A stretch of DNA of 64,000 nucleotides from Flammulina velutipes (Eukaryota; Basidiomycota; Agaricomycetes; Agaricales; Physalacriaceae), in NCBI GenBank assembly GCA_011800155.1, contig JAALGH010000011.1, positions 1,984,001 to 2,048,000 on the forward strand, given 5' to 3'. The notes beneath the pieces are model-generated. The model was not told where the DNA came from. It made no database searches and saw nothing but the letters and a program-made list of their open reading frames with translations. How positions within the stretch are numbered: the stretch's first letter is position 1; every line of letters begins with the position of its first letter. Position numbers and translations under genes: made by a program. Positions 18,935 to 38,552 of this stretch are shown in pieces.

Positions 18935-19639
18935 GGCCGGGGATGGAGATGGGGAGAGGAGCAGAGTGAAGAAACCACCGAGAGGCTTAGTAACGGTGTG
19001 GGCCCGGGGAGTCCTTGTTATGTTTCGAGAAGTCGGTTGGGGGTCGTTGCTAGGAGACCTTCATGAGAACGTCGACTTGTTGGGCTTAGAGGATTGAGCG
19101 CCGAGCCAGCGCTTGACAAGTTAAGCGTTCAGAGTTACGATGATTTCGGCATGTGACTCGGGCGAGCTTTGTAGATCGCCTCAATCATCTTCCAGTAACG
19201 ACTTGGAGGTAGAGGTCTGCCTCATGCAATGCATGAAGTTTTTTTTGTCGACGTCGGTGTACAAGCGCAAGGTGCCATTGATACACAGGCGCCCTGCGCC
19301 ACATCAATTTGTTTTACCCACTCGAGCTCAAAATAAGTGCTACTAGGCTACCAAGTGACTACTACAATATTGCTTTTTTGCTTGTTACAATGCTGAGGGC
19401 TTCGGACAGGCTTCACTTGGGTCTGAATCTTTGCGGGCCGGAACGGCCCGTGGCAAATGCATGCCGTCTTGATCCTTTCTTTTCCTTCGCCACACAGACG
19501 TGGGCTCCCAGGAGGGTATGTAACGAATAAGGAGAACAATAGGTATATTTCACTCTGCGCCGGTTGATGCTGATCTTCTCTCGCATGATAATAGCATAAT
19601 GACTTCTCAGTGGCAATATTCTCAGCGCATGATGCTCTT
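18935..19639. other. Intergenic flank left of the transposon
   Basis: No gene recognised. The last bases before the element, ATA at 19640-19642, are repeated right after its far end at 37816-37818. Confidence 0.5.
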
Positions 19640-19642
19640 ATA

Positions 19643-19686
19643 CACACCGTGGACAAGGCAGTTTACCCTTTGCGGAAACTCCTTTA
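19643..19686 (+). repeat. Left terminal inverted repeat, 44 bp
   Basis: Reads CACACCGTGGACAAGG at the outer edge and ends ..CTCCTTTA. It is the exact reverse complement of 37772-37815. Target duplication ATA at 19640-19642. Confidence 0.96.
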
Positions 19687-20090
19687 CAAAGCTCTTCTAT
19701 TCGAGATAAGGATACTTATTTCTATATGTAATTATTTAAGATGCGAATGTTCTGCACAGATAGTCCTTAAGTTAAGTGTTGGAAAATAAAAATAATTCCC
19801 GAACCAGATACGTGTTCAGAAATGTTTGGACAAAGGGATCAAGATATCATGGTATATAGGTAACCTATGCCTGGATTAGAAATACTATACATATGCAAGT
19901 CCTGTGTATCAACCTTCTTACAATGTTTTACGAGAGTGTACAAATGAGTAGATATATTTGATGTTCCTAGGTTGATTTCGCAAAAATGTAGATACAAATC
20001 ATCTGTCGCGTCCAGATAACGCGCTCCCGGTCAGCGCCGGCCTTAGGGGAGACCAGCTGCCAACAAGCGCCTGGCTTCCATATCGTCGGA
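19687..20090. other. Left subterminal region of the transposon
   Basis: AT-rich non-coding stretch, where CACTA elements usually carry transposase-binding subterminal repeats. TAGATATATT near 19950 recurs near 37490 at the other end. I cannot show a regular array. It also holds the 3' UTR of the transposase gene. Confidence 0.45.
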
Positions 20091-23000
20091 TTACAAAATC
20101 ACTGCTGTGGGGAGAATAAGAATGTCTTCATCATCGTGACTAAGGGAGCTTACTCGGCCAAGGTCGACGACAACCATGTGTCCGTCATACTCGAGCTGAG
20201 CAACGTGACAGACAATGTCAAGCGGCGATATGATATCCAAATCCGCGGCCATCTCCAACGAGTAGCTGGTGGCAGGAAACCACTGGAATAGAGAGAACGG
20301 ATCATACGTATCAGAAGGGAGAGGAAGAAAGCGTGAAATGTGAAAGCAGGCTGAGGAGCCATCTGACGACGCTGTAATTCTTTGGATACTCCCAGTATAC
20401 GTCGCTGTCGGTGATCCAGGAAGTGAATAACGGACTAAACTGTTACCAAGATGCGTCTGTTGACGGGTGTACATGACGCCATCATAGGCGTAGCGGGCGG
20501 TTTCTCCAGTTTGAGTGCCAGGCGCCAAGTCGTTGTTGGTTTCTGCCAGCCGTTGGTGCGGTGATAACGCTTTGTCCAATAATCGCTTGAATTCGCGAAT
20601 TAACGGCGGGCAATCTTGATGCCTGAGGAGCTTGCGTAGGTTCGATCCTCGGGTAAACGACTTGACAATGGTGGTTTCTGCTTCGCCTTGGATACGATAA
20701 ATCAATAAAACCACCTCCAAAAACAAGAAGAACCCACCACCGATATGGGTATTTGTGTTGATCTTTTGAACTGTGCCTATGAGGCGTTCAAAAGGGAAGG
20801 TCCACCACGAGTTCACCGGGCCAAAAAGCTTCAAAAAATCGTAGATGTGAAACGCAGCGTGCACGTTTGGTCTGTGTTTCTGCGTTCGAGTATGGGGATG
20901 TACCTTGTGCAGGCCGTCGACCCATTCCTTCAGGAGGGTACGATACGCTTCCATGCGCTCGACAGTCATACTATAACGGCAGAGGATGTTGACAGCCTGA
21001 AAAAGTGCCATGGTGTGCGAGAGGACCTCCCGCTCACGAGTCGAAGAATTCTGAGAGCCGAAAAAGGTGATGAGTGCAATAGGAAGGTAGAGGGTCGACA
21101 GGGTACGCCATTCGTCCGCCTTGATAGTCCCTTCGACCGCTTCACCGAATCGCTTTGGCACAGTGTTGATCCACGTAGGTACAGCACAATCTTTGATCAC
21201 GGCCTGGATATGGTCAATGACGTCCACTGTAATACTGCGAGGAGGGTTCAAAGACGGGTGAGGCTGCGAATTGCGCTGAAATATTACTTAATAAGAGAGA
21301 ATGAATTATCATTAGGTGCGCACCCATTTCATTAGAGCCTCCGTGTATTGCTCCTTGTTGTTGAGAGGTGAGTTGACATCCCTGCGTTCAGCTTCGCCAT
21401 CCTCTGAACGAAAGACCAGCGTTCGTTTTAGTTCGTGGATTCCAAGCGACCAGGCTACGAATCTCAGAGCAGGCTTCGGTTGCTTGAAGAGACGAGTACG
21501 GAGTACCTTGAATGTTAAGGAATCGTCGCCGGATTCGAAAGGCTGCTGTAGAAGATCCTGGATTGTTTCAATGCCTTTGAGGCATTTCTTCATGTTGTCC
21601 TTTTCCAGATTGATTTGCGCGTTCGCTGGCACTTCCAGATGGACATACGGCTTCCACGAGTAGACGAAGGCGGGAGATGGTTTGGACTTCGTCTCGGCAG
21701 CTTTCTTGTCGATCTTGAGGACGTGACGGCAATGATAGTGAACCAAACCCTCCAGAATACAGTGCATGCTGTCAACAACCAGCATTCTGGTTGGATTCCA
21801 ATACGGCAGCCTCCAGAATTCGGACCAACGTACACCATGGGCATCAAAGATAGCTTGTTGGTCAGCTGCAGTGTCGGCCGCTAAATAATCCTCAGCCGCT
21901 TCCCGGAGATGATTGGCGTCTCGCAAGTGCCATGGGAAGGTGAGGTTGTAGCTTTGGGCGGGTTGATCACATATTGTGCACCATGCTGAAAGAGGACCCG
22001 CTGCGCCTCCAACCTTTCGGGCGGCAGGAAGGTCATTGACAGAGACGACTACTGCAAAATCCATCGTCCGACCAGCAGGGCGCGAAGCAGTGCGGGAAAG
22101 ACGAAAGCCAGTTTGCCAACCAACCACACAGACATCGATTACGGGTGCCATGTAGCATGATAATCCGTCGTAGTCAGGCTCCTTGGGTCCCGGAATGATG
22201 GAAGCTAGGAAAAGATTTTCTGGTTTGTAGCGTATATCGGCAGGGAGGTTGAGAATGGCGATGGAGACGATGCCCAGTGAATCGCTTGCTCCTCGAAGGG
22301 TGAGGCCGTTGGGGTTGAAGAAGTCGACCTGCATTGCGAGTGCTAGGCGTGCACGGTCTCCCCTGTCGATGAAGAGTTTGCGGGTGGTTGCTGACGAGGG
22401 AGGCGCCTCAAACGTACGCAGAAATTCCCCGTCAAAAGCATTCTGCATATTTAGAGGTTCACTGGAAGACGTGTGGGGAGTGGAGTCGTCGGCGGTGCTC
22501 TGTACGCTGGCGAACGCATCATCACAAGCCTTGTCGCAAAGTCGCTCGAGCTCTTCGTCAGCGAGGATGCGAGCAAGATGTTCCTCTAACGATGCGACAG
22601 GATAGGCCTTCTTCGGACGCAAATTTCCATGCCGAAGCGAAGTCAGGCCCTTTCCGCACATGCGACGAGAAGCCTGCGGGTTATCCTTGTCAATGACCAT
22701 GCGTTTACATACGTCGGGATATTTAGCAATGACGGAAACATCGCTGGAGAATTCGGGACGGTGGCAGTGACTGCATGATGGGCATACAGCGAAGATTGTA
22801 AGCTTCCCGTCCAAATTGAGGGAGTTGAGGGAGGAGTAGAGGGAGGAGGGGAGCTGGTCCAGAACATCATCGTGGAAGGGTGTTTTTGGTTGACCTGAGC
22901 GACCAAGATCGATGGAAACTCCGGCTATGAGCCCAGCAATACTGAGGATGAAGTCGCAGGCAGCATGCGAGAGGCCGAGGATGAGGTTGCACGTCAATCC

Positions 23001-23996
23001 TAAGAATATGACGAGTTGAGTCGTTGCAGTTTTTCCCCAAAGGGGATCCTGGAAAAAGTGATCTGAGAGTCGTCAGTTTGAGACTGTCAAAAGCAACCAA
23101 TAACTTCACGTACCTGTTTCAATCACGGGAGGCTCTGTTATCGTGCGTGGAGGTAAATTTGAACCTAGTAGATTGATGATGCCGTCCAGCTGTCGCAGAC
23201 GCTCCCTGGCCATTGCAAGCTCCGCAACGTAGTCCTCCTTACGTCGACGTCGTACAGTGGAAAGGCTCCGACTCAAATCGACAATTGTATGGCTGGCAGT
23301 GTCCAGAATGACATATCGTTGCTCCACCGCTTGAGCATCAGTGTGGCTGACTTGGCTTAGTGTCCTAAGTTCTTTGAGGAGGGCCTCTGCTTTTTCGGAG
23401 ATGCTTTTGATGAGGTCCTCAGCGCGTTCAGCCTTCGTAAGGTGGACTCGACCTGTAGGAGTGGAATTTCGATATCCACCACGCCACTCCCCTCGTTCCA
23501 ACAAACCCGATTGGACAACGGTACGTACACCATGTTCCAGATCGCTGAAAGATGCGCCGGTGATGCGCGAAGGGAGAGTAGATGCAATGTTAGCCTGATG
23601 AGCGACTCTCGAAGTCCACAGCCGGTCTGGTGCTTCGGGCGCCTGAAGACCATCGCTGATTGCGGTGGCCGCTACCATGTCGGCCAGTTGATGAGATGTT
23701 GAGTCCCGCGTCCCGCGCAAAGACGGTGAACTATTCGCCAGATTGTCCGTTTCGTCGTGGCTGTAGACATCGCTAGAAGTCGTTTTCTGTGCGAGGCTGG
23801 TGAATACGGCTCCTTCCGACGCTGGGGCAGAACTATTCGCTAACTTTCGCTGCAATGAGATGAGCGACAATCACGATGAATGTAAAACACAACTCACTAA
23901 TGACTGGAGATGCAAATGTTCTGATTGCTGGACAGATGTTACGCGGTGAGGAGGAAGCACGTCACATTTACAGTCCTTCAGGCGAGAACGACTCAT
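20091..23996 (-). CDS. CACTA/EnSpm transposase (Tnp2-like)
   Basis: About 1180 residues in at least four exons on the minus strand. Exon 1 starts at ATG 23996 (MSRSRLKDCKCDV) and joins over a 48-nt intron to RKLANSSAPA. The next join, near 23100, gives VIETDHFFQDPLWGK. The core domain resembles Transposase_21/Tnp2: DFFNPNGLTLRG, then LPADIRYKPENLFLASIIPGPKEP (matching the family's LP..IPGPK.P), YMAPVIDVCVVGW, and VDSMHCILEGLVHYH with the D..H...G motif. A Cys/His cluster (CPSCSHCHRPEF) precedes the core. The C-terminal third (NVHAAFHIYDFLKLFGPVNSWWTFPFERLIG) resembles the DUF4218-like tail common to this superfamily. It should bind and cut the 44-bp ends. No frameshift or stop was seen, so it may be active. 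Confidence 0.9.
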
Positions 23997-24201
23997 AGAT
24001 GGATACGGAAGTGGTGTACGAGGATGGATATGGGAGATATGGGTACGGATAGTCTGGGATGTGAAAATAAGGCTATAAGTAAGGATAAACGAAATGAGCA
24101 CAAGGTCACCATGGCATTAGATGCCATCTATATTACTACAAAGCTCACCATATAGAGAGGCCATGCGTGGTGCACACCCCGCTCTCGAAGCTAAGGGATG
24201 G

Positions 24202-24442
24202 ATAAGGACACCTTATAACGAAAACGGACAATGAGAAACGTACACGTCCTTAAGAACGCCTCGGTAGTGCAGCAATTTGACGCACATTCAGCATCGGCGG
24301 AACACGAAGGGCGCGAGATCCTTGAGCATGCCAGTTGTGCACGCTGGATGAGTGGCGTGGTTGGCCAGAGAGCCATTCGGCCAGAAACGACACGGGGCAC
24401 ATACAGATAGATGCCTATAGGATATGCCCCGTGCCGTCATTC
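24202..24442. repeat. Palindromes between transposase and first cargo gene
   Basis: ATAAGG-aca-CCTTAT lies at 24202-24216. A long imperfect inverted repeat follows: the 16-nt arms at 24387-24402 and 24422-24437 pair at 14 of 16 positions around a 19-nt loop, with the perfect part CACGGGGCA/TGCCCCGTG. Next to it is TCATTC-tgag-GAATGA starting at 24437. No protein-coding frame covers them. Confidence 0.7.
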
Positions 24443-24532
24443 TGAGGAATGAATGAGGACGCTTTGTAGCGAAAAGAGAACAAAGGGACGTACTATGCAG
24501 ACGAATGTCCCTGGCCTTGACACGATACCCAA

Positions 24533-24612
24533 ACGATTTGACGCAAAGTCAAATCGTACAGCAGAACACAAAGTTCTGCGTCACTCGTATACCCAAAGAC
24601 CCAAAGTCTTTG
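24533..24612 (-). repeat. Stem-loop cluster A, three copies, loop TTTGN on minus strand
   Basis: Three adjacent perfect hairpins have 10-, 7- and 7-bp arms: ACGATTTGAC with loop GCAAA (24533-24557), GCAGAAC with loop ACAAA (24561-24579), and CAAAGAC with loop CCAAA (24594-24612). Read on the minus strand, the sense strand of the transposase, the loops are TTTGC, TTTGT and TTTGG. Arms are unrelated to each other apart from ending in AC at the loop. They lie about 540-620 bp upstream of the transposase ATG. Confidence 0.9.
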
Positions 24613-24778
24613 AGAGCATACTAGTGGTGGGTAGTGGAGAAGCTGAAGCAGGCGCTTGTTGCTGACTTAACGCCGTCGCCTGATCCGGCGCCCTGGATTT
24701 TGATCTAGCACATCTCTACATACATATTCACCTTCATCTATAGTGATATCACTGCTACGATGTTCGATGACAGTAAGT

Positions 24779-25047
24779 ATCCAACGACTTCGTGTCGCTG
24801 GATCTCTCTCTTCAATGCTCACTCAAGCTGAACTGTGACTTCAGACTTCTCAACCTTATTTCGCGGGCCGACCATAACTTCTCCGACGATTCTTACCCAG
24901 GCCAGTCGTTCCTTTCTACCAGACTACGATGTCGCTGTTCGATGATGCTATCTCAAGGCGCGTTATTCTGCCTTGACCACTCGGAAGAACTTTGTGTTCT
25001 TGTTGAAGACTTTGCGTCTTCATCGGTAAGGACTGTGTGTCCTCACC
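24779..25047 (+). repeat. Stem-loop cluster B, four copies, loop TTTGN on plus strand
   Basis: ATCCAACGAC with loop TTCGT (24779-24803, one mismatch) lies inside a likely intron that starts GTAAGT at 24774. AAGAAC/TTTGT is at 24985-25001, TGAAGAC/TTTGC at 25004-25022 and GGTAAGGAC/TGTGT at 25025-25047 (one mismatch). A decayed copy, CCCAAGC/TTTGT/CTGGG, lies near 25185. All read TTTGN-like on the plus strand, the sense of the cargo gene ending at 26233. Confidence 0.88.
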
Positions 25048-25169
25048 TTTCTTTTGTCGATTCCTGTAGCTGACGAGTACTAGAATTCAAGTCAATACTC
25101 AAGCCACTGTCCTTTTCTCTCTGTGTGTATATTTCTTGTTGTCTAATCCATAAAATCTGATTTCCATAG

Positions 25170-26233
25170 ATTAACCGGCTGTATGTCCCAAGCTTTGTCT
25201 GGGATTCAGTTGATCATCCCATATGTACAGTCGCGCTCGCGTACTACTATATTCTTCTCTTCTTCCCTCGTGGGGTGGATGGAATAAAAGTTCGCGTTGT
25301 AGTGCGTTGTTCTATCTTTTCTGTTGACAACCTTCTGACAGCCTTCAGACGTCTGTAGTCGCCACATTCCTTTTAGCCCACCTCGGGATCCTTGACGTGA
25401 TGTTGACAGGAGGATTGGAGAATAAAGTCAACAATTATCTATCCGCTACTACCCTAGTCCTCATGGGGTGCACTACGGCTACTACAGAGGGATACTTCCT
25501 ATCATCCTTTTTCATCATCTCGAAGACCGCTGCCTACGGCTTAGAGCGCCGTGTACGACACCTACTCTTTCTGGTCGCATTCATCCTTTTGGCCAATACG
25601 GTCTCCAGTATAGTGTCTTCCGTAGCTATCGTGGAGGATCACGCATCTTGGGTCAAAATATCCTTGATCACGACTCATTCAACTTCGTTGGTCGTGGATG
25701 GTTTCTGTATGTTTATGGGGTGCCATGTCATCTGTCAACTCCAAAACTCGGCCATGGAGGAAGTACAGCACCATCTCAAACGGCAGGTGAGTATTGTCTG
25801 GACAGATTGCTTTCCAAGCCTCATCATATCCGCAGAAGTCTTCGATTATCATCACCCGTGTTCTCACAATATGTCTATCGTGCAGTGTCATAGCTACTGT
25901 ATGTGATTTTCCAACTCTCAGCTCGATGACGAGGCTGATTCACCTTTAGACAGCTTTTCCAGAAACCGAACGGATTGGGAGGATTCTACAGATGTTCATG
26001 GTCCCCAGTAAGTTAAACTCAATTGTCCTTTGATGTTGCTGAAAATGTTGACAGCTCGCGCCGTTGGAATGTTTGGGATTCTTAGTCGCCGCAAGTGGAA
26101 TAATGACGGTCCCGGTAGCGACGTTTTCTTCGCCTCGTCCGCGTCCAGCCGTCTCGGAAACGGAAGTTTCAGACTGGATGATGACAGAGAATTCAACGTT
26201 GAAAAAGCTACAGACGTCGACATAGAGATATAA
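25170..26233 (+). CDS. Cargo 1: DUF6534-like polytopic membrane protein (5' end uncertain)
   Basis: Exons 25170-25289, 25349-25786, 25836-25898, 25950-26007 and 26055-26233 form one frame of 285 residues. The pattern matches the fungal DUF6533/DUF6534 membrane family: an early helix with AYYYILLFFPRGVDGIK, then TFLLAHLGILDVML, FLSSFFIISKTAAYG, LLFLVAFILLANTVSS, VKISLITTHSTSLVVDGF and a terminal segment ending ..RAVGMFGILSRRKW before a hydrophilic tail. Expect about six or seven membrane passes. The true start is upstream. Candidates are ATG 24760 (MFDD, followed at once by a GTAAGT donor) or ATG 24931, but I could not join either cleanly. Family members are common and poorly characterised; a role in sensing is only a guess. 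It is divergent from the transposase. Confidence 0.7.
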
Positions 26234-26346
26234 AGCTGGAAGCATATTTTTTTGACCGCATGATATCTTGTAAACACTACCTATTGTAAAATAAATCACT
26301 CGCTTGTAAAGTCAGGAGGGAACCATAGTATGGATTCATTAGCAGT

Positions 26347-26406
26347 GAACGCTGGCCAACTCGGCATCGCCGAGTAGCATGGCGCAGCCTATGCGTTGGC
26401 CACGTT
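26347..26406. repeat. T-shaped palindrome, copy 1 (core orientation B-C)
   Basis: Outer arms are GAACGCTGGCCAAC (26347-26360) and GTTGGCCACGTTC (26395-26407), complementary apart from one bulge. They enclose a 34-bp core (26361-26394) of two small hairpins: TCGGC-atc-GCCGA, a gta spacer, then GCATGGC-gca-GCCtATGC. Folded, it gives a T with two short arms. The 5' flank reads GGGAACCATAGTATGG. Confidence 0.93.
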
Positions 26407-26472
26407 CGAAGAGTAATTTAATAATAGAACTCTTTTTACACTAGGGAACTATAGTATGGATAAATTAACAAT

Positions 26473-26532
26473 GAACGCTGGCCAACGCATAGGCTGCGCC
26501 ATGCTACTCGGCGATGCCGAGTTGGCCACGTT
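26473..26532. repeat. T-shaped palindrome, copy 2 (core inverted)
   Basis: The same outer arms occur in the same orientation (GAACGCTGGCCAAC ending 26486; GTTGGCCACGTTC from 26521). The 34-bp core at 26487-26520 is the exact reverse complement of the core in copy 1. The flanks (GGGAACTATAGTATGG at 26444 and CGAAGAGTA on the right) align directly with copy 1, so the unit is duplicated head to tail while only the core is flipped. Confidence 0.93.
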
Positions 26533-26592
26533 CGAAGAGTAGTTGGGGAATAGAAGATGAACTTAAATGCGAGAAATGTTACATATTTTACA

Positions 26593-28133
26593 CTAATACA
26601 AGCTACAACGATGGTCTACGAGGTGCGCCAGATGCGCTGCATAAGAACGACACATTCCACATTCATCACATTTAATCTCCATCGTAGATACGAGTGCCCA
26701 GACGTCCTGTGAAACACCAATTCGCGAGTTCCATTCTATCAGAGCGGCACGGCTGGGGGCGGATATATCTGACCAGTCAGGAGCTCCCTCTGGAAGAGAG
26801 GGAGCATGTTCCAGAGTGACATGGCGTTGATGGGTTTCGGGAAACACTGTGGGAGCTATTAGCTTGCATGAATCTTCGGATGAGCAAAACAGTTACCTTT
26901 GACACCTCGATACCAATTGTGGCAGTAACCACCTGGAACGATGTGATCGAAGTAGCCAGCATTGGAGAAAACACAGGAACAGACGCGACAGACGACAGCA
27001 TCATCTCTGATGATACGCCAAGTCAAGGAGGGGATACCACTCGTAGAATGGAGCTCTCGAATAGCATGGCCGATATCTGTTCCGAGGAGTTGTGTAAAAT
27101 GATTGGTATTACGCTGCGCCGAAGGATCCAAGGAGAGATCCCACGGACGGAGGACCTGGGGAAGAGTGTTATCGTGTGTTGGGTGATTGACGGCACCTGG
27201 TATCGTTAGAAGTAGTTCGTAGCATCAGAAAGGGCTTACCTGACGAGAAGTCCCCCCTTTGGTACGCAGTTTCGATACGAGAGCAAAACTCGATGTCTAG
27301 AAGATGGCGTCAGGATGGTTCGGAGAATAGCCAGTAAATAATAACCGTGAGTAGCGCGTGTGATTGCTCTCCTGCGATTGAAGTACGCCTGGAAGGGAGT
27401 GGGAATGGCCTGACCTTCCGGCGAGGGAGTATAGTAGCGATCTTGTTCCCAAGGGAATTCGTCACTCAGAGGGTCATTGAGGACTGGGATGGTAACTACA
27501 CGCTGATTAATCCCGTTCTGAAATGATTTTGAGACCACTTACCACGAAGAGAGCACTGATGTAAGTCGTTTTTGGCCTGGAAGTAGTCGACGCCATCCGC
27601 GGTGCGAAATAACGACATGGTGCACTCCTCCAGGCAGCGATAGGGGTTGAGAGAGTGCGGACAGCGCACTGTTGGTAACGCAGAGCCAAACTGGTATCCG
27701 TGTAGGCTTGTCATCGTTCCATCTTTCAGCTGGATATACGGGCTACGACATAGGTAAGAAAGACAGAAGAAGTATTGGGTTTAACGTACCGATCTACCTC
27801 TTCCCATTGAACGGTATTAGGGTTGAAAGTAACGATGAGGCCGTCATCGTACGCGGCGGCCAATTTCTTCAGGCAGAACACCATGTAACTCTCTGGCGGC
27901 TCGTTCGCCGTAAATAGCTTTTCGAAGAGTCTTGTAGACTTCCGAGTACGGCGTGCTTGCTCAGACGGATGAGTTGAGTTGCTCTTGGGACGAGGAGAGC
28001 GATTCGGACGGATGAGGGAGGGCGTGGGGCTTTTGCTAGTGGATTTCTTGTGGTTGCTAGTGGCTTTCTTGGGGCTTTTGCTGGTGGCTTTCTTGGGAGA
28101 CGCTTTCTTGGAGCACGTAGTAGAGCGAGGCAT
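26593..28133 (-). CDS. Cargo 2: hypothetical basic protein with Cys/His clusters
   Basis: Minus-strand gene from ATG 28133 to TAG at 26593. The N-terminus is a Lys/Ser-rich tail made of SPKKATSK-type repeats (histone-H1-like, probably DNA- or RNA-contacting). The following exons encode KSTRLFEKLFTANEPPESYMVF, PYIQLKDGTMTSLHGYQFGS and a long segment with YYTPSPEGQAIPTPFQAYFNRRRA. The C-terminal exons carry CRVCSCVFSNAGYFDHI, GGYCHNWYRG and CDECGMCRSYAAHLAHLVDHRC, which look like zinc-binding clusters. Most joins are clean. The junction near 27130-27240 is ambiguous: the best-looking donor (GTCAG/GTAAGC) breaks frame, and only weaker GT sites keep it. It is transcribed divergently from cargo 3 and could be a nucleic-acid-binding accessory factor; this is unproven. 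Confidence 0.7.
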
Positions 28134-28339
28134 GGTGATGAGAGGGCGAAATGATCATAGGAGGCTTAAATATACAAGTCAGTAATTGTTTCCCGAAAGT
28201 ATCTAGGAATAGAATAGCTCACAATTGGGTATCCAAGCACGTACCGTTTCATCAAGTGCTATTGTGTGTGTACCCGACGTCCGCAGGATTCCTTGGATAC
28301 GTTGACCGACATGGACGCACAGTCCATTCCGGAATCCAA

Positions 28340-28553
28340 CCAATAACTCAAAGTCATTGGCACTCTCAGCAATGACCCAAAGTCGTTGCTGGCAGTGGGC
28401 GTCTGAGAACAAGAAGTGATCGGCGACGGATGCAATAACGGGATGATGATGATCAAGGTTGCGCAAGACCATCACCTGAAGACTCTGCGTCTTCAGGTGA
28501 TAGAGTGAAGACTTTGGGTTTTCACCAGTTCGCTCAAGACTTTGCGTCTTCAG
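28340..28553. repeat. Stem-loop cluster C, five copies, orientation switches with the genes
   Basis: On the cargo-2 side are CCAATAAC/loop TCAAA (28340-28360, one mismatch) and CAGCAATGAC/loop CCAAA (28367-28391, one mismatch), i.e. TTTGN on the minus strand. On the cargo-3 side are ATCACCTGAAGAC/loop TCTGC (28471-28501, 13-bp perfect stem), GTGAAGAC/loop TTTGG (28505-28525, one mismatch) and CTCAAGAC/loop TTTGC (28533-28553, one mismatch), on the plus strand. The change of loop strand falls between the two divergent genes. Confidence 0.9.
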
Positions 28554-28724
28554 TGGCACGTCTGACTCGACCTTGCGTTAATTGCTTGATCGTAGTGAAG
28601 GCAACTGCACCGCCAGGATGGATATCGGTACGAGAACAATTAGACCAATTGTTTTCACGAATGACAATTACAGGCTCAGTATATCCGTTTTCCAATGATT
28701 CGATAATCTCCAAACTCCATCCCC

Positions 28725-31062
28725 ATGTCTGATAGTCCAAATGTAAGGTCATCGCCGTAGTCTATCATCATCGTCTCAACTCTTTTGCAGATTCCCAACA
28801 AGCGACCCAATCTAGGCGATGGGAATACTACACCCCACGGTACCCCAGCCAAGACGACGATGCATAAAGCCCTTGGAGAAAGACGCAAGGCCCTCGCTGA
28901 TCTGAGAGCAAAACTCGAATACGCCAATACACGCGAGAAAGAGCTCAGACAGGAGCTGTCTGGACGAGAACAAGACGTGGAACGACTTTTGGAGACCGTA
29001 CGACTCCGGGACCTCGATATCCTCAAGTTTGAACTTCGACTTGCTGGTGACACCAATGAGGACATCGAAATGAATAGGCTTGACGAATTCGAGGAACTTT
29101 CAGAACATTGCGAAGCGCTGAAAGACGCTTTGTTGACATCAGTTCGTTTTTCTCTTCAATTCCCTATCTATTCTTCCTGAATGATGCCTGTCAGAATCGC
29201 CAAATCGAAATACTCACATTCGAGAAGGACGAGTCCGTCAAACTGGCAGCTCTGCTGAAGGAGAATGAAATAGCACAGGCTAGAAAGCACGCTGAAGACA
29301 TCGCAGATGCTGCCACGAAGGCCAACGCTCTCCTAGTTCGCTTTCTGACTACATCTAGCCTGTCTAGTACTAATCTACTGTAGGAGGCTCAGAGAGAATC
29401 ATTTGAGGCTCAGGTCGAGTCTAACCGTCGGGAGCAACACAAGATCTTAGTACGTGTTCAAAATCCCGTTATTAGCAAGACCTAACTAACATCAATCAGG
29501 AGCAGAGAAATATACAAATCGTTAAGCTACAGTCACAGTTGGCTCAGGTTAGGGCATTAGTTTCATTTGCGAACAAATCTCACTCCTTTCAAGGCCTTCA
29601 GAGCTCCTCGAAATTCGTCACCATCTCCAGAGCGAACCACGAACTTTCGACGGCCTGGGCGTGGGCGAGCACGTCGCAAGTTTGGCTCTACTCAAGCGGC
29701 AGGCTCGCTGCAACCTCTTCCTGTTCGTCTGGAGGTGCCTCCAAATTCCGCTGGTGCAACGGCGGCTGGGACATCTGGCTCAGCGCCGACAGCTGATGGC
29801 GCTACTGGGAGTTCTACCTCTTTTCCAACTCCCTCTTCAGGACGGCGCGTTCCACGAGCTGGAGAACCTTGTCCCCCCGCTATCCATGTCAACCTTGGTG
29901 TTGATCCTGCTCGAGGCCCCGAAATGCGTTTGATCTTCAAGAGTCACTATACTTGGACAAGAATGGTGAACGAGGAGAAGGCCGCATGGTGCGATTACCT
30001 CGACAAGCTCGCAGTCTACAACAAATGCGACAGCTCAGACTACGCGAATGAGTATCATGTGAGTTGATTTTACATGACATTGTTCTCTTTTGATTGACGT
30101 CTCTACCAGGCCATGAACCGCGACTTGTGGAGAGACACATACGGGCTATCCACTTACAGCGAATTTGCCGGCTATATCCCCGCAACCAACGATGAAGCTG
30201 ACGCATTCGAAAAAGGAACTGCAGGAGGCCCTGACCAAACATGCCGACTTTTCTTCGGACACAATTTCAGTAGCCATCCATGGAATAGACGAGTAATTGA
30301 AGCACTTACCGGTCGCTTCAAGGAATTGGTGGCGAAGGAGCATGACTGGCTACCTGAGGTCTCTGATGGCTACCTTGCAGGATTGCTTCATAGCTCTCTC
30401 ACGCAGTCTCAAAAACATTGGAAGGAGTTCCAGCCGAGGAGAGATGACGCAAAGGGCAGGCTAGAGACGCCTGAAGAGGCGATACTTCGCGCAAATTCTG
30501 GAAGGGAACAGACTCTACGGCAATGCAGTCTCACAACTCTTCGCACGACAGTGAGTGATTAGTACCATCAACGCGATAAGTAAGCTAACTACCGGCTCAG
30601 AAGCTGAAAAACCGCAAGTACTGGGTCAATGTCCTCCTTTCGATGAAGGAAGCTATGCAGCCCCCTCCTCCAGACCTCAATGTCTGGCGACAATGGGCTA
30701 CAGGGGTAGCCAAATGTCGTCCTGACGTTATGACGGACGAAGAGTTTACTATCGAAACGAACAGCGACAATATTCCACACAATGTTTACCTGATTCGACA
30801 ACCTCCGTGGAGAGACGCAACACTTTCGCTCGCACTTAGGACCATAGACAAAGAAGCGAAAACTGTCGGTTTAAAGGGGGTACCAACGGTAATGGCGACT
30901 GAACGCAGGTACGTTAATGAAGTCAGCACGCAGCATGCGCCTGAGGGGCTTTATAAGCCGTTCTACGACGATGCATGGTTGGCGGAGCACTTGAAGACCT
31001 CGGATATGTATGTTGAAGATGCTGACTTTGAGTGGCACGAAGTTACTATCACCAGCTTGTAG
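28725..31062 (+). CDS. Cargo 3: coiled-coil hypothetical protein
   Basis: Start ATG 28725 (MSDSPN) in an 18-nt first exon, followed by a 48-nt intron and exon 2 at 28791 (IPNKRPNLGDGN). At least eight exons join in frame. The N-terminal ~200 residues are a coiled coil (LGERRKALADLRAKLEYANTR, then ENEIAQARKHAEDIADAATK). A low-complexity Ser/Ala/Gly/Pro linker with RPGRGRARRKF follows. The C-terminal ~300 residues contain LIFKSHYTWTRMVNEEKAAW, GLSTYSEFAGYIPATNDE and a final part with KYWVNVLLSMKEAMQ and ATERRYVNEVSTQHAPEG, ending at 31062. I do not recognise the family. It is likely nuclear or cytoplasmic, with no membrane segment. Confidence 0.75.
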
Positions 31063-31204
31063 TATACGTTTATAAGCCATGTATTTTGTATTTTACCGAG
31101 TATTTATTGTACGATGAACGAAATCAACTGCTTTAGCAAGTGTGCTATTTTAGGACGCTGTAACCCAACCGTAACCCTACTTGCTACCATTACCATCGCT
31201 TCAC

Positions 31205-31352
31205 CCAAAAACTTTGCGTTTTTGGCTCTTCACGCTTCAGAACTTTGTGTTCTCGAGCGCCGTAGAATTGACTTTGTGTCAATTCGCCTTTCTTTCAATT
31301 TCCGCTTGTATTTCCGCGTGCTGCGTCAGTCAGTGTGTACTTTCGGTGCGCA
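31205..31352 (+). repeat. Stem-loop cluster D, four copies upstream of cargo 4
   Basis: CCAAAAAC/TTTGC (31205-31225, perfect), CGCTTCAGAAC/TTTGT (31233-31259, one mismatch and one wobble), GAATTGAC/TTTGT (31265-31285, perfect) and TGTGTAC/TTTCG (31334-31352, two G-T wobbles). All read TTTGN-like on the plus strand and lie 50-200 bp before the ATG at 31406. Confidence 0.9.
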
Positions 31353-31405
31353 TACCACTTCATTGACTTACTGCTATTATTATTCACACCCTTCACTAGA
31401 CCCAG

Positions 31406-33586
31406 ATGGCTTCTACCAGCAAATTTCTACGTCTTCATGATCTCACCGTGAATTCACCCAAGGACGACGAGCCCTGTGAGTTGATACTTGCCTCGATTCA
31501 TGCGGTCAGTTGGAAAAGCTTTGAGCTTCACACTGAGGCATTGAAAGACTTTGAGTCTTTTCTTGTTTCTTATGGCTTTGTGCCATGAGCTGAATACTGA
31601 CTATCCTACAGATACTCTAAAAGCTAACGATGGTTTGGTCGGTACAATCTTCGAGACGTCTTTCATCACCTGTCATCGACCTGTCAAATCTATACCCCCG
31701 CCCCCTCCGGAGTCTGAGGTTCAGGTGTATCGGGATGGGTCGTTCGGGCCTCACGACTTCGTTTGCACCCCGCAATGGTACCACGAATCTGCACCGCAGC
31801 TAGCAGTCGTGCCCGTATGCCCGGAATGGGACGATATACGACATCCCCTCCATGAACACAGATGCATGTGGGACCTCCTGCAGCCTAAGGATATCAACTT
31901 CGGCCAAGGCGTCGTATCGGGGGTTGGTCGAGTTAGCCACTCGTTCTTGAAGCCTCTCATTCGATCCGTTAATGTACTTAGAGTCGAGACAGAGGTCTAT
32001 CTCAAGGAGCTTCCCGAGAGTGGCACTGGCAACCTTCGCAATCTTCTCCCCCTCTTATTGCGACGCACGGAGCTATACATGGACCGCCTATCTTCTTTGA
32101 GCAAGGATATCACATCTTTGCGCGTTTTGACACGCGGTCTCCAGCGGACGTGGCTTCTCCTCCTAGCAACCATTCGCTACATGAAAATCTACAGGCCAGT
32201 CATGAACGGATTACCTCCCGCCAACGAGGACGAGTTACGGGTCAAGGTCGTCGGGGTTTATACTGCAGGCCTTCACGTCGTCGAAATGTTCCTTCCTGCC
32301 AAAGTCCCGACATATTTTATGCGCCCGTGGTCTGCATTTATCGACGTTACAATCATGGGTACATGCAATATCTCTCCACGCGGTGTGTACATTCTGCCGG
32401 ACAAGCCCCTCCCCATCGTTTTCGCCCAAGGGGCTGTGACAATGGAGGCACTTCATGCCATGTCTGGATATGTGGCGCGTTTTGTCACCTATCGCGACCC
32501 ATACAGCTTCAAAGACCCCAAAAGCTCCTCTACTTCGACACAGGAGAATACCGCGGCGTCTTCGTCTTCTTCTGCGAGACCCGCCCCAGGCCCCGTTCGC
32601 CAAACTCAACAAAATGTTCAGGGGCGGAGAGACGCATACCGCGCTGGTCCTGCTGCCACAAGCAACAGAAAAAGCGCCAAGCTCAGTACGTTTTGCAATA
32701 TCTTGATGTATATTCCATATTCATGTTCACTTCGATAGACATTCAGCCCGATCTCTTCAAAGATGTCGTTGGAGGAGACTGTCCTGCTATCGCCTCTAGT
32801 TGGACAAGCCTTATCACTGAGATAGATACTCAGTCTACCCGCTTCCTCAATACGCGCCCCACCAAACATCTGTATCCCATTCCCCCGCCCAGCATGTTCG
32901 TCAATACTCAAAAGGCGGTAGACTATTTCGCACAATATCGTCATCTTCGGAATGCTCTCCTGTATCGAGGAGAATCATCTGCTCCCATGCTCCGAACTCA
33001 ACAATGGCGCTCAATTCTCGGTTTGCGTCAGAGCATGGGATCTACCAAGTCGAACTCGGCCTCTACCGCAGCATTCAACGAGGTCAAGACGTTGCTGGGC
33101 AAATGTTTCGAGCTCCAAGGTGTCGAATTCACGGAGTCCCTCGTCGCCCCCCCTGGAGTGGTAGATGATCATCAGCGACGTCGAATTCTTTGGGAAGTAT
33201 CCCAGGTCGGCTTCCGTATTGACCTGAGCGCCGTCGATAGCCATCTATACGTGGGATCTACCACAAACGAGCACGACGATGGATTGGATGGCAGTCTGGA
33301 ACACTCCGACAAGCTGTTATCGTTGTTCCCCGAGAAATCTCTGACGGTCATAGATAGTTCCAGTGATGCTGGGTTGCTTGCTCAGGAGTGGACCTCCCGT
33401 CGTCCATATCTTCAAAAGTGGAGGGATATCATGGCTGAGTGGAAGGTCGCATTGCCGGATATTTTCAAGGGAGATTTACCTACGACGCATGAGGAACATT
33501 GGGAGCGCGGACTCATCAAACATTACTTACAGCTAGCATACGATGTCCTCGGTCGACCACCATTTATTCCGTTTGTATTATATTGA
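31406..33586 (+). CDS. Cargo 4: large hypothetical protein
   Basis: Exons 31406-31475, 31612-32685 and 32739-33586 give 663 residues, a clean multiple of three. It starts MASTSKFLRLHDLTVNS. The N-terminal half includes YTLKANDGLVGTIFETSF, a Pro-rich KSIPPPPPESEV and predicted helices. The middle is Ser/Thr-rich (SSSTSTQENTAASSSSSARP). The C-terminal half has PTKHLYPIPPPSMFVNTQKAVDYF and ends RPPFIPFVLY. There is no membrane segment or motif I can name. Intron 1 is 136 nt, against about 50 nt elsewhere, because it holds three stem-loops. The upstream region carries four more and the downstream region six. Confidence 0.82.
31516..31586 (+). repeat. Stem-loop cluster E inside intron 1 of cargo 4
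   Basis: AAGC/TTTGA/GCTT (31516-31528), AAAGAC/TTTGA/GTCTTT (31544-31560) and ATGGC/TTTGT/GCCAT (31572-31586) lie within the intron 31476-31611. All are sense to the gene. Stems are short (4-6 bp), but all three have the shared loop. Confidence 0.8.
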
Positions 33587-33786
33587 ACTTCATCGTTTCA
33601 GTTTTACGTCTTTCAATCACTGTACTTTGTATTAAATTTGCCGCAAATTCATTTGAGTTTGAGAAAGTGAAATTATCTCCCGCCAGCGGATGAATTAGCG
33701 ACAACGTCGAAAATATGCGCCACATTCAGGCCATGTGGCCCGACGTCAGTGGCATCAAACAATGTTTCTTCCTCCTACCATCATCA

Positions 33787-34100
33787 TGCGGGAATACAAT
33801 GACTTTGTGTCATCGTGTCTTGCTATCCTGCACTTTGCGTGCAGGATGAATGACTTTGTGTTATTCTCTTCGATGAGTGGCAACCATATCTCGTTCGCTG
33901 TACTCCCTCACGCATATTTTCCCTGGACGTCAAACCCGAATATGTTTCTTGCAACCTCAACCTTTCGGTACGTCCGACTTATCATTATTGTGTACCCAAA
34001 AAATGCCTCGTTTCCCAGGAATACGATGACTTTGTGTCATCGTGGCTTGCTATCCTGCACTTTGCGTGCAGGATGAATGACTTTGTGTTATTCACTTCGT
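33787..34100 (+). repeat. Duplicated block with stem-loop cluster F, six copies
   Basis: A block of roughly 80 bp occurs twice, near 33791-33870 and 34018-34097. Each copy carries three consecutive stem-loops: (A)CRATGAC/TTTGT (33796-33816; 34023-34043), ATCCTGCAC/TTTGC (33825-33847; 34052-34074) and GAATGAC/TTTGT (33848-33866; 34075-34093). Neighbouring hairpins abut with no spacer. The region separates the convergent ends of cargo 4 and cargo 5. Confidence 0.9.
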
Positions 34101-34241
34101 GGAGTGGCGACGCCGGCTGATGTATCGGGACCGTATCTGCTGTAGTTCGCACTCTGAATTCACCAACAACAATGAAGATTTAATGGATAGCAAATGTCTG
34201 AACCCGCAGAAGGTAAGCTTCCACGACAACCTGTGTATATT

Positions 34242-35930
34242 CTACCTAACTAATGTCCCATTCGTCAGGAATACATTATTTCGGCCATCCTCTTCAGAAG
34301 ATTCCATGAACATATCGCTGGCGACGGTGCTAGTAACGGTATGGGTGGTAGTGACGAGCGAGATACTGGCGACGGGAAGAAATTCGGTAGCGGGAGGGAT
34401 GTCGGTGACCAGAGGGATGACGGTGAACTCAACGGGTGGTTCACCTCCTGAGGTATCGTGGGCTTGCACTTCCGCCGGGCCTGTAGTATTAACAATATTC
34501 CCAGATACCTTTGCTATATACGGGCTACAGGTCATCCACGCGTCCTGCATATATTGTCCGATTTCCTGTGGAACAGGTGAGCAACGAAAACAGACAATGG
34601 ACCACACTAACCTCTGATTCTCTGTAGGCCCATTCACAACCGAAGACCGCGAGCACAGATACGAAGACGATAAGCAACAATCGCAAGAGACGATGGACCC
34701 AAGTCTTCCTGAAGACGAAGATATCACACCGTCCGTTGTTAGACATTGCATGGCCCGCGATAATTGCCGGTACTCCATTTATAGTGGTTGTCTTGGTACG
34801 TGAGCTCACGAAAATTTGGCAAGAACTATTAACTCACAGTAACAGCTTGCACCCAGGCATCCTTCTTCGTCCGGAGCTTCTGCATGATATCTCCCGTCTT
34901 CCGATCGAAAACGTACACTGTGCCGTGGTCGCTACCACTAACAATGACGGTGCAATCCTCTGCAAGTGCCACCTGTTTGGGTGCCGCTAAATCCTTCTTG
35001 CGAGGTACATCGAGCTCTTTGAGCCGGGACGCGTCGTCCATCTTATAGAGCGCGACACCGCCCAATATTGTGTCGACGGCGAAAACGTTTTTCGCGGCAT
35101 TGCAGGCTGCAGATCCACTACAGGTGCGTCAGATTCATTTTCCACCCGAAGTCGTCATACTCACATCTTAATACCATGTAGCATAGACCGGGCGTTGTCT
35201 ACCTGCCCAGTACCTGCATTCAAAATCATACTTCTTATAATCAGTATCAGCTTTTTGCAGGTAAGAGATTACTCACATGGCATCATGGAGACCGAAAATC
35301 ATGACGTTCTTCGCAATAGTGAATGTCACCGATTTTGGAATGCAGTTATCAATACGAATGGCCCACAAGTCGACTGCGGTGCGCATCGTTGACGGATCTA
35401 TACCGAAAAGGGCAACCGAGCCTTCTCTGTTGGCGGCGACTAGCCTGCTAGTTGCGGAGTCGAATGCAATGGATGTGATTTCGCTTGGAAACGCGAGTCG
35501 GATGACGTGAGTTTCCTCAACGCCGTTCTCCAAGAAAGTAAGTATTTGTGCGGTGGATCAATGGCGAAGAACTGACCTCAGCTTTGTACCTACAGAAGGT
35601 GATATAACCTTCGAGGGTACCATAAACGAAGCCCTCTTCTGGGCTGTCGTCACGTCGAATCCATGTGACAGCCGTGGTAGCGCCTCGTACGTTGAAGGTC
35701 GAAATTCGATGCAATTGAGCCATATCTTCCAGGCTCCAAATGATGATCCCATCCCCACCTCCGAACAGGTCAGTATAACACTGGGATAGAGATAAAGTAT
35801 ACTCACCACCACTCGCGAGAAGCTTTCCGCTGTCAGCGACGGCTAAGCACAACACATGGGTATCGTGCCCGCGAAGGACAGTCTTCTGGTTGTAAGTGTT
35901 GACGGCGCGGTACCAGTTTCTGATATTCAT
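34242..35930 (-). CDS. Cargo 5: WD40 protein with C-terminal membrane anchor
   Basis: Minus-strand gene from ATG 35930 (MNIRNWYRAVNTYN) to a stop at 34242, in at least six exons. WD40-type blades are visible: KTVLRGHDTHVLCLAVADSGKLLASGG, then GGDGIIIWSLEDMAQLHRI, EITSIAFDSATSRLVAANREGSVALF, and CTVIVSGSDHGTVYVFDRKTGDIMQ. These form a small propeller used for protein contacts. Near the C-terminus is one membrane helix (RLLRLLLIVFVSVLAVFG) followed by an acidic/hydroxyl-rich tail ending TNGTLVR. A single-pass propeller anchored in a membrane is unusual cargo for a transposon. The start is the first Met in the exon; the last join (FGCEWAYRESE to EIGQYMQDA) is in frame. Function unknown. Confidence 0.82.
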
Positions 35931-36472
35931 TGTTGACGATTTCCTAGCTTGCCCGTTTGCGCCTACTTATACAATTTTCCGCACAATAGGTATGCCTTTC
36001 TTGTCCTTTTGAATACTCAGCCATTCCCAGCCTTGGATCGTACATGAATAATCCTATCCATTTATTGCACCACGGTTGCGATGTGCATAGCCTTGCCAAC
36101 AATTGGTATACCCCGCTTGTAATTTCAGCTAATTGTTCTCTAACGGACCTTCCAGGTGCAAGCTTTCCGTATGGGTATACTCTACAATTGCTAATTGTTA
36201 GAGACAACCCGTGAGACATTTTTCGCCATCGTCGTGTTGGTTGTCGGGAGTCGCTACAGACGAACAATTGGTATGCTCTCATTGTCTTTTTATCTAATTG
36301 TCTTCTTACTTCGTACTTGCTTGCTCTAGGCATCTCGTCAAACTGTTCGCTTTCCGATGTATGGGTGATGATCATCATCTGTCCAGGTTATTGTTGTTCC
36401 ATACTCAGCCCTTGTATTGTTCTCGGGCGCTATGAATACGGCGAGCAGACGGTAAGTGTAGCATCACTCACC
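35931..36472. promoter_or_regulatory. Divergent promoter region of cargo 5 and cargo 6
   Basis: No TTTGN stem-loops are seen here, unlike the other two divergent regions. Instead ACAATTGGTATRC or a close form occurs three times (about 35982, 36099 and 36263), and an inverted repeat CTCTACAATT-gct-AATTGTTAGAG lies near 36180-36203. A minus-strand open frame covers the region but has no supporting features. Confidence 0.5.
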
Positions 36473-37435
36473 ATGCCCAAGATACCATCTGTCACCGTTT
36501 TGCCAGCTGCCCATGCTAGTCGCCCATACCCGAAGCCTCCCACCGTTCTCGCCCTCGCACAGACCGAGTTCTCAGAGGAAACATTCTCTGTGCTTCCTCT
36601 TGCTCTTCAGGACGCACGGAGCACTGTTGCTGATCTTTCCCGCCCTCACCCGTATCAAAAGGCAATGCAGCGTCGAGCAATGTTTGCGTCTCAAACGGCC
36701 CAAGCTCGCGCAGAGTAAGTAACACCTTTACATTGTCGACCAGGTGATCAAATACTTTCGCTAGAGCACCTTCGAGTTCGGACGGCACGCAAAGTAACGA
36801 AGGGTAAGCTTACTTCCAACGTACAACTCCAGTTCTCACGTCATTCTTGTAGGTCGATAATGACCGGAGGCGGCGACAGTGCCAATGCCCCTTCGGCACT
36901 GCCTTCTGTTCCTCCCGCACCTCGACTCGTTGTTGCGCCTTCTGAAATCACGACCATCAAGATATCTTATCCGGGGAAAAGCTCCGGTCGGGATCACCTC
37001 AAAGCCCAATTACATCTTGGGGAAAAGACAGACGAGATTTGTGTAAGTCTTTGCTCTTCCACCACTGTCAACCTTGCGGGCTGATATGACTTTCCAGCAA
37101 TATATTCAGAAACTTGCCAAAGACCACCTTGACTTGTCCGTGAGCTATGATCTACAGACTCAAGAAGCGCTTGATAGGGTCAAAGACGAGGTCAGTCTAC
37201 ACTTCGAAACTTTGTCACATTCCTAACCGTCTTATTACAATAGGCCACCGCCAAATATCCCCAGCTCTTCAACTACGTTGATCTGTGGCCTATCAAAGAC
37301 TTACTTATCCTTGACTGCAAGGCAGGTGTTCAGAGGGCCAAGACGAGGGAGACCCGGGCAAAAGCGAACCAGCGGGGCGCGAGTGAGAGGCCCGTGGGAC
37401 GACCAGCGTCCAGACGGCAGGCGCCTGTAGGGTGA
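36473..37435 (+). CDS. Cargo 6: small hypothetical protein with basic AT-hook-like tail
   Basis: Exons 36473-36714, 36765-36803, 36853-37042, 37098-37190 and 37244-37435 give 251 residues, an exact multiple of three. It starts MPKIPSVTVLPAAHAS. The first half is low-complexity and Pro/Ala/Ser-rich. The second half has a compact segment, SEITTIKISYPGKSSGRDHL through YIQKLAKDHLDLSVSYD. The tail is strongly basic (RAKANQRGASERPVGRPASRR), and its GRP-type core could contact AT-rich DNA. It lies just inside the right end of the transposon, so a role in binding the subterminal region is conceivable but unproven. Confidence 0.78.
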
Positions 37436-37771
37436 CGCATATCCCGGTTGGCGCAATGGTAGATATGCAGGCCCATATCTCCAAAGTTTAGATATATTCA
37501 CAATGTCATCGCTTATCTCTGACGTCTATAACTGTATCAACAATATGTATTACGCGCACTTGTAAACTATCTCTTTCTCTCCATGTAGATAACTCGATTA
37601 TCAATATGTGTTGCCAGGTACTGGGCAGGTGCGCTATCTAGTTAGCAATATATGTTTAGGTGTATGCATCTTTACTCGAGATATTTCAGTGTGCTAGAAA
37701 TCTAAATCGATAATTTTATTAGTCTAAGTATTTTCTGGGTGGGTATCTACGTTCTTGGTATAAATATTATA
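37436..37771. other. Right subterminal region of the transposon
   Basis: AT-rich and non-coding. CAATATGTRTT or a similar sequence recurs about every 50-58 bp (near 37541, 37600 and 37648), which could be transposase-binding sites. TAGATATATT near 37490 is shared with the left end. Confidence 0.5.
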
Positions 37772-37815
37772 TAAAGGAGTTTCCGCAAAGGGTAAACTGC
37801 CTTGTCCACGGTGTG
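37772..37815 (-). repeat. Right terminal inverted repeat, 44 bp
   Basis: Exact reverse complement of 19643-19686. It is followed by ATA at 37816-37818, the second copy of the target duplication. Confidence 0.96.
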
Positions 37816-37838
37816 ATAGGTGCTTATCGATTTCATCT

Positions 37839-38552
37839 TCAATTCAGTCGCGATAATTGCCGGCGGTTAGGGACAGGTGCATACAAACTGACGGAGTTAT
37901 GCCCTGGATGCTCTTCGCGGGGGGACAGCAAACAATGCTTCCACCAGGACCGTAGGTCGTCAACAAACGTGGATCTAGGGCACTGGAAGACCGACAGTCC
38001 ATGAATGGTTTCGGAGTACGTCTAGATAGATGATTTATGTCAGCTTCTATCTGGCGAAAACACACAACACCTCACGTTTGTCGAAGGGTTGTCACACAGC
38101 GTATGACCTGGAGCCTTCTTGAGCGTCCACGACGCCGAGCTCGAGGAGAATTCACCCGTCTGAATGAATCCAAATCGAGTAAACTCGTCCTGATACTTGG
38201 GAGAGAACGATATGGGGTTGTTGCCGTTGTCGATGAGGTCGATGGTTTCCGTGAAATCAATCTTGTCTGCAAAACTTCATTCAGTATTCGCCCGGTACAA
38301 CGACCAGAGGATCTCCGTACAGCTATAATACGAGCTCGATGCCTCGTGATGCTCGTCCAAAGCGCGCGGCAAATGCTTCTCAAAGCCGCCGCTCCCGGTT
38401 TTGTTAATGAGCTGGTGCTTTACATCGACACTGTTCACGAAAGTCTCGGTGGTGTCAAATTCGCGCTTCTGCCTAGCGGGCGGGAGAATTTATTCAATGG
38501 AGAAGTCCAGGTAGACGTCGTCATTCCACTAACACGCGTTTGCTGCGTGCAT
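37839..38552 (-). CDS. Hypothetical protein, host gene abutting the transposon
   Basis: Four exons on the minus strand, 38536-38552, 38321-38472, 38076-38266 and 37839-38021, total 543 nt (180 residues), and every junction stays in frame. The first exon is only 17 nt (MHAANA). Recognisable segments are KREFDTTETFVNSVDV, NNPISFSPKYQDEFTRFGF, WTLKKAPGHTLCDNPS and STFVDDLRSWWKHCLL, ending RRQLSRLN. I do not know the family. The stop codon is 20 bp from the transposon target site, so the element sits in what is probably its 3' UTR. No single exon forms a long open frame, so the gene is easily missed. Confidence 0.72.

Follow-up and report, generated by a model that had tools for sequence, protein, structure and literature searches.

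The stretch of DNA analysed here, called the window below, comprises 64,000 nucleotides (nt) of the Flammulina velutipes genome (contig JAALGH010000011.1, positions 1,984,001 to 2,048,000) and contains an 18,173-bp CACTA/EnSpm transposon at 19643-37815. Six of the eight genes of this element (A, B, C, D, E, and G) are accompanied by short hairpins in groups of three, which share their loop and differ in their stems. On balance, we favor the view that these hairpins function as RNA in the transcripts of the transposon.

The element is a CACTA/EnSpm DNA transposon by three tested features, namely its ends, its target duplication and its tnp2-type transposase. The passages of PMC12730594 on fungal CACTA/EnSpm elements describe 5'-CAC..GTG-3' ends, 3-bp target duplications and a tnp2 transposase; the copies studied here differ from that description in their length of 17.7-45.6 kb, in about seven further genes and in the hairpin triplets. 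The genome scanned (38.1 Mb in 23 contigs, the window falling in contig 12) holds four copies besides that of the window, and the five together occupy 117,449 bp or 0.31% of the genome. All five have 5'-CAC...GTG-3' termini with terminal inverted repeats (CACACC...GGTGTG) and a 3-bp target site duplication (TSD), which is ATA in the window copy. The transposase exon at 21312-22997 matches PF02992 with E 2.9e-11 and 43.4 bits, the curated cut-off being 28.6; a KDZ-type transposase, the initial guess, was abandoned for tnp2. Named transposase relatives among the 120 matches listed come from mushrooms (Tetrapyrgos, Mycena, Pleurotus), and none was confirmed in viral contigs. The further copies are:

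C5:1924605-1942296, copy C5, 17,692 bp, TSD TGA.
C9:1880162-1898165, copy C9, 18,004 bp, TSD TGG.
C7:2528949-2546950, copy C7a, 18,002 bp, TSD CTT.
C7:916959-962536, copy C7b, 45,578 bp, TSD CTA.

C9 and C7a are 99.917% identical over 18,004 aligned bases while their sites and target duplications differ, hence the element has moved recently. The genes, hairpins and ends of the window copy are:

19643..19686, plus strand: left terminal inverted repeat CACACCGTGG..., target duplication ATA just before it, 44/44 complementary to 37772-37815.
20091..23996, minus strand: gene A, EnSpm/CACTA transposase (tnp2) in several exons, start codon at 23996, PF02992 on the exon named above.
24533..24614, minus strand: triplet of gene A, cores 24605, 24572, and 24547; RNA fold z -5.8.
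24780..24802, plus strand: single hairpin, loop TTCGT, core 24789, upstream of gene B, in the window copy only.
24929..26233, plus strand: gene B, predicted membrane protein (by eye), exon structure the same in four distinct copies.
24985..25043, plus strand: triplet of gene B, in intron 1, cores 24991, 25011, and 25034; RNA fold z -2.8, 3/200 shuffles as good.
26596..28133 (approximate limits), minus strand: gene C, from reading frames, with a Cys-rich C-terminal part.
28311..28390, minus strand: triplet of gene C, cores 28381, 28352, and 28321; RNA fold z -3.3.
28471..28554, plus strand: triplet of gene D, cores 28484, 28513, and 28541; RNA fold z -4.1.
28725..31059, plus strand: gene D, coiled-coil-like N-terminal part (by eye), conserved C-terminal exon 30589-31059.
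31205..31285, plus strand: triplet upstream of gene E, cores 31213, 31244, and 31273; RNA fold z -4.6.
31406..33586, plus strand: gene E, 663-amino-acid orphan protein, open spliced frame.
31516..31589, plus strand: second triplet of gene E, in intron 1, cores 31520, 31550, and 31577; RNA fold z -3.0, 3/200 shuffles as good.
33799..33866, plus strand: triplet G1, cores 33804, 33834, and 33855; RNA fold z -5.3.
34022..34094, plus strand: triplet G2, cores 34031, 34061, and 34082; RNA fold z -6.4.
34183..34451, plus strand: putative small gene G, about 70 amino acids, one intron near 34213-34269; drawn by eye, the weakest gene model.
34242..35966 (approximate limits), minus strand: gene F, WD40-like, weak Pfam beta-propeller/WD40 matches below cut-off.
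36473..37432, plus strand: gene H, reading frames conserved in C5 and C7a.
37772..37815, minus strand: right terminal inverted repeat, followed by ATA, a perfect 44-bp pair with the left end.

The 25 hairpins of the window copy are eight triplets and one single hairpin, and cores within a triplet are 20-33 nt apart. An earlier note on this DNA had counted 26 stem-loops. Two of its sites are not counted here: for 21570, in the transposase exon, no hairpin is among those listed at the same place in other copies, and 31333-31353 is a weak, G.T-rich match. The hairpins are genuine, and their number greatly exceeds chance. If only uninterrupted Watson-Crick arms of at least 5 bp are allowed, the element contains 16 TTTGN hairpins, against a mean of 0.155 and a maximum of 3 in 200 dinucleotide shuffles; with arms of at least 6 bp it contains 12 (shuffled mean 0.03, maximum 1). 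The comparison with shuffled sequence that the earlier note had proposed thus bears the observation out. The other 45,827 bases of the window contain one hairpin with arms of at least 5 bp (shuffled mean 0.4), at 11373-11387, with a 5-bp arm and a T-A closing pair. This one hairpin corrects the earlier note, which had found none outside the element.

The loop, described as a constant TTTGN, turned out to be wider, with the consensus C-[U N Y G N]-G: U1 and G4 are also favored where the loop was not selected, position 2 is free and position 3 is T or C. Among five-base-loop hairpins with arms of at least 6 bp and unselected loop, the form C-[TNYGN]-G accounts for 14/23 in the window element, 12/15 in C5, 14/21 in both C7a and C9 and 13/25 in C7b, against a chance expectation of about 1.6% at equal base frequencies. 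Thirteen of the 14 in the window lie in clusters, the remaining one being the exonic 21570, and within the window clusters all 13 five-base-loop hairpins with such arms have this form. In a larger set of 88 hairpins from four copies, where loop positions 1 and 4 and the closing pair were set by the search pattern, position 2 is T 62, A 13, C 7, and G 6, position 3 is T 83 and C 5, and position 5 is T 45, C 25, A 9, and G 9. This set was drawn from 98 candidates and leaves out five exonic or unrelated hits (window 21576, C7a 1833, C5 8093, C7a 9981, and C7b 16837), window 22086, window 23634, and stems below 5. Moreover, the computed RNA fold of each of the eight window triplets surpasses the mean of its shuffles (z -2.8 to -6.4); none of 200 shuffles was as good for six of them, and 3 of 200 were for each of the two intronic ones.

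The hairpins also cluster in the other transposon copies, a point that the earlier note had proposed to test, and all four further copies carry hairpins at matching places. Comparisons between copies used 25 of the 34 alignment columns with a hairpin, the nine dropped having a hairpin in a single copy. Identity within hairpin columns amounts to 81-83% in five of six copy pairs, compared with 49-53% in the surrounding leader, and in the C5-C7a pair the hairpins are 94% identical vs. 77% outside. Stems change in a matched fashion. Seventy non-identical hairpins aligned without gaps show 92.9% standard pairs (61.4% with the 3' letters shuffled). Their covariation score is 0.79, which drops to 0.19 on shuffling and does not exceed 0.18 on sliding. 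These figures are overstated because the rows were chosen for pairing (at least 5 of the inner 6 pairs being Watson-Crick); identical rows were entered once, and the same five exonic or unrelated hits were omitted. In 25 orthologous groups (90 hairpins, four copies), a paired hairpin was needed in at least one copy and only the core in the other members; here 487 of 540 cells are paired, against 471 +/- 3.3 when the 3' letters were permuted within groups, and extra Watson-Crick pair types number 17, against 8.6 (maximum 14). None of 2000 permutations attained either value. Where two copies differ at a site, 269/392 cells pair within a copy vs. 210/392 with the arms exchanged, and the differences include 33 double changes of Watson-Crick type, 5 double changes involving G.U and 43 changes from Watson-Crick to G.U; these counts come from copy pairs and are not independent. 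In cluster G, one series runs from TAC..GTA (C5) through TAC..GTG (C7a, with G.U) to CAC..GTG (window). The near-identical C9 copy was excluded from all co-variation counts. Since the hairpins occupy the same places in four distinct copies whose leaders are for the most part only about 50% identical, and since their stems compensate, sequence comparison indicates that they are old and maintained, not recent products of copying.

In the four distinct copies, the strand that carries the TNYGN loop of the clustered hairpins is the sense strand of the next gene, with orientation read from the positions of cluster and gene and gene G judged by eye. The C-D and E gene blocks are both inverted between copies, and hence hairpin orientation follows the gene, not the element. 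From triplet to ATG, the approximate distances in the window are 535 nt (gene A), 178 nt (C), 172 nt (D), 121 nt (E) and 89 nt (G2). Gene B starts with exon 24929-24957, intron 24958-25169, an 11-nt exon at 25170-25180 and intron 25181-25230. All four distinct copies have this short ATG exon, an intron of 212-233 nt, the 11-nt exon and the second intron, with junctions encoding R-x-x-G-(F/S)-(A/G), and in all four the triplet lies inside intron 1, its first core 23-41 nt past the donor. This donor is GT in two copies and GC in two; later exon limits of gene B are provisional, and the window and C7a models still contain downstream stops. The exons of gene E (31406-31475, 31612-32685, and 32739-33586) give the open 663-amino-acid frame, which places the second E triplet of the window copy in intron 1 (31476-31611). 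Gene A has two triplets in other copies, and G1 and G2 share a 94-bp direct repeat of 94% identity. No hairpins of the triplet form were found upstream of genes F and H (35900-36520, window copy).

A second repeated motif, ACAATTRG / CYAATTGT, is present at 28221, 28636-28652, and 36099-36301, that is, in the leaders of C and D and repeatedly between F and H. Its arms are constant and its loop is variable, the reverse of the triplet hairpins. It is possibly a protein-binding promoter site.

Across the genome, three exact patterns were searched, which sample the possible hairpins and do not exhaust them. TGACTNTGNGTCA has 49 matches, of which 32 fall in the five elements and 17 outside them (control 19); for AGACTNTGNGTCT, 16 of 35 fall inside and 19 outside (control 27), and for AGAACTNTGNGTTCT, 11 of 17 inside and 6 outside (control 1). 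Of the combined 101 matches, 59 lie in the five copies and 42 are scattered elsewhere, against 47 in the controls. By the listed places, the closest two of these 42 are about 40 kb apart, hence clusters, by the three patterns tried, occur in the elements only. Confinement on the scale of the genome, which was beyond the reach of the earlier note, thus holds for clusters. The bare core ACTTTGYGT occurs 694 times in the genome vs. 467 for the reversed control, and of its first 30 sites on contig 1 one has at least 4 Watson-Crick pairs. In viral contigs, a two-hairpin pattern gave 30 stretches, which are raw pattern matches only.

The variable stems with matched changes, the asymmetric and oriented loop and the intronic sites together suggest RNA that is read by its loop. 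We hold it to be probable, with moderate confidence, that the hairpins form at the RNA level, toward the 5' end of transcripts, and mark an element-specific regulon. That the loop or its shape is recognized, as previously proposed, is supported by the C-G closing pair, U1/G4, the free position 2, the co-varying stems, the conservation and the strict orientation. The hairpins would be located in the leader and first intron of transcripts made from the transposon itself, where the loop could take a UNCG-like turn on any helix, with U1 and G4 fixed, N2 turned out, a pyrimidine at position 3 and the fifth base bulged. A loop-reading RNA-binding protein might occupy the three adjacent sites, and genes A, B, C, D, E, and G might be jointly spliced, exported, translated or repressed as a regulon. 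Given that clustering is restricted to the element, a reader encoded there, for which C, D, and E are candidates, is more likely than a general regulator of the host. Splicing or nuclear fate would be a fair first guess for its action, because two triplets sit in first introns. The more specific proposal, that an element-encoded protein reads UNYGN triplets in the leaders or first introns of six of the eight genes and coordinates their splicing or translation while host RNAs stay untouched, is offered tentatively, as a possibility that we would not call probable. The usual view is that promoters, alternative splicing and host silencing control cut-and-paste transposons. An RNA tag private to one element and common to most of its genes would, if true, be a new layer of transposon self-control and provide a small RNA-protein recognition system that is loop-specific and stem-independent. 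Large mushroom CACTA elements would then be multi-gene systems with common regulation and uncharacterized accessory proteins.

Several observations weigh against this reading. Six of the eight triplets lie 5' of a start codon, where promoter DNA is possible, and a role of the hairpins at the DNA level would also yield co-variation and orientation. In C and D, the AATTGT motif stands between triplet and start codon, and it is also found at F/H, which have no triplets; if it marked the true core promoter, the C and D triplets would be upstream of transcription. Pair-breaking changes are many (85 single and 22 double changes separate a paired from an unpaired state, and 8 sites are unpaired in both), and other copies have lost some triplet members or carry them in degenerate form. 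A first count of G.U vs. A.C (23:9) looked RNA-like, but flank composition took away its force: in the 88-hairpin set the ratio of G.T to A.C is 31:13 in stems, yet 161:108 in flanks, so that this RNA signature is not decisive. No recognizable RNA-binding domain was found in the element pieces scanned with Pfam, and the structure model of gene E exon 2, built from three sequences, was uninformative, with a predicted local distance difference test score (pLDDT) of 34. Finally, AGAACTNTGNGTTCT shows a small excess of scattered matches outside the elements.

Among the alternatives, the most serious is that the hairpins are extruded from promoter DNA, read strand-wise by a DNA-binding protein or polymerase-like factor and set transcription. 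Hairpin promoters in phage N4 are a precedent. The position of most triplets upstream of start codons fits this idea, as do the divergent gene pairs C/D (window) and E/G (C7a), whose divergent triplets are 80 and 113 bp apart, and stems would co-vary here too. Extrusion of short stems is, however, unfavorable in chromatin, two triplets sit in first introns and no polymerase gene was recognized in the element pieces scanned, and we therefore judge this explanation to be rather unlikely, though worth keeping in view. A dimeric transcription factor binding double-stranded palindromic sites around the ACTTTGYGT core would account for the promoter-proximal clusters and the conserved core, and the antisense core ACAAAG resembles HMG-box sites. 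A dimer, however, does not require matched arm changes out to 8 pairs, and the loop is asymmetric, fixed in orientation and free at position 2, which makes such sites a doubtful explanation.

A role in transposition or internal recombination could be imagined, as the hairpins occur in mobile elements with internal inversions. Their distance from the ends of the element is, however, at least 4.9 kb (left) and 3.7 kb (right), none of three miniature inverted-repeat transposable elements (MITEs) moved with the same ends carries them, and the inverted blocks are associated with separate inverted repeats of 50-75 bp; this role is very improbable. Least credible of all is that the hairpins are a by-product of snap-back synthesis or of chance, for which the perfect arms in some copies speak and nothing more. 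Chance was rejected by the shuffle test. Snap-back copying, one of two explanations that the earlier note had considered, was rejected as well, since orthologous hairpins in four diverged copies have stems with compensating changes.

UNCG-class loops have U1, any base at position 2, C3 (or A/U in the wider YNHG class) and G4, and a C-G closing pair is typical of them. In the excerpts of a 2017 study (PMC5633025), YNUG loops are said to comprise structures of the UNCG class, and pentaloops are able to adopt such folds when their fifth base is bulged; a passage of PMC5311481 reports a Z-step in a UCAGu pentaloop. The loops of the element resemble UNCG/YNMG/YNUG loops such as that of enterovirus oriL domain d (PMC5633025, same excerpts) in U1, a free N2, a pyrimidine at position 3 and G4, but have five bases with an extra one after G4, and U3 is far commoner than C3. 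The first four bases and the closing pair fit the class, though the search pattern preset U1, G4, and the closing pair; the loop-unselected set also favors these bases and this pair (14/23). The nearest functional analogy is the Smaug/Vts1 recognition element (SRE), a CNGGN0-4 loop on a non-specific stem in the excerpted text of PMC4053848, with which the element hairpins have in common a constant loop, a free second position, a non-specific stem and the possibility of more than one site per transcript. In contrast to the SRE, their loop is UNYGN and not CNGGN, they are 5' and intronic, come in triplets and cluster in one transposon family only, and no SAM domain was found in the element pieces scanned.

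The Rfam search of window 19000-38500 gave a single match (E 0.61), whose 23.5 bits fall short of the gathering score of 90, and thus no family. Plant En/Spm is not known to carry a repeated motif other than subterminal TnpA sites. Judged from listings of the open-licence literature, no description of such transposon hairpins was found, and PMC9674265, in the part available, concerns other transposons. Loop-specific RNA (or DNA) hairpins are known in kind; we did not find their location and arrangement here described.

Gene A is 78-82% identical to the four other copies, and the last exon of gene D is 78-81% identical in C5, C7a, and C7b. Gene C has no Pfam match above cut-off. For gene E, a search in a set of 5.8 billion proteins, with scoring limited to the top 8000 candidates, found two relatives, at 96 and 60% identity over 56-57% of the length. 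The gene D and E pieces tried have no relative in the PDB by sequence; a match to a bacterial adhesin (E 0.019) was taken as chance.

The length of C7b is due to a 13.5-kb segment that is present twice in direct orientation at 99.985% identity; in the duplicated segments, no hairpin of the triplet form (arms of at least 5 bp) is among the matches listed. The three MITEs, each 222 bp long (C1:1429503-1429724, C4:2991899-2992120, and C13:259566-259787), share the ends of the element, and each has its own 3-bp target duplication (CCT, TCA, and ACA, by eye). A 50-bp perfect inverted repeat lies between genes B and C (26353-26402 / 26479-26528). In C7a and C9, the C-D block is flanked by a 75-bp inverted repeat, and its inversion between copies suggests that the block flips by recombination.

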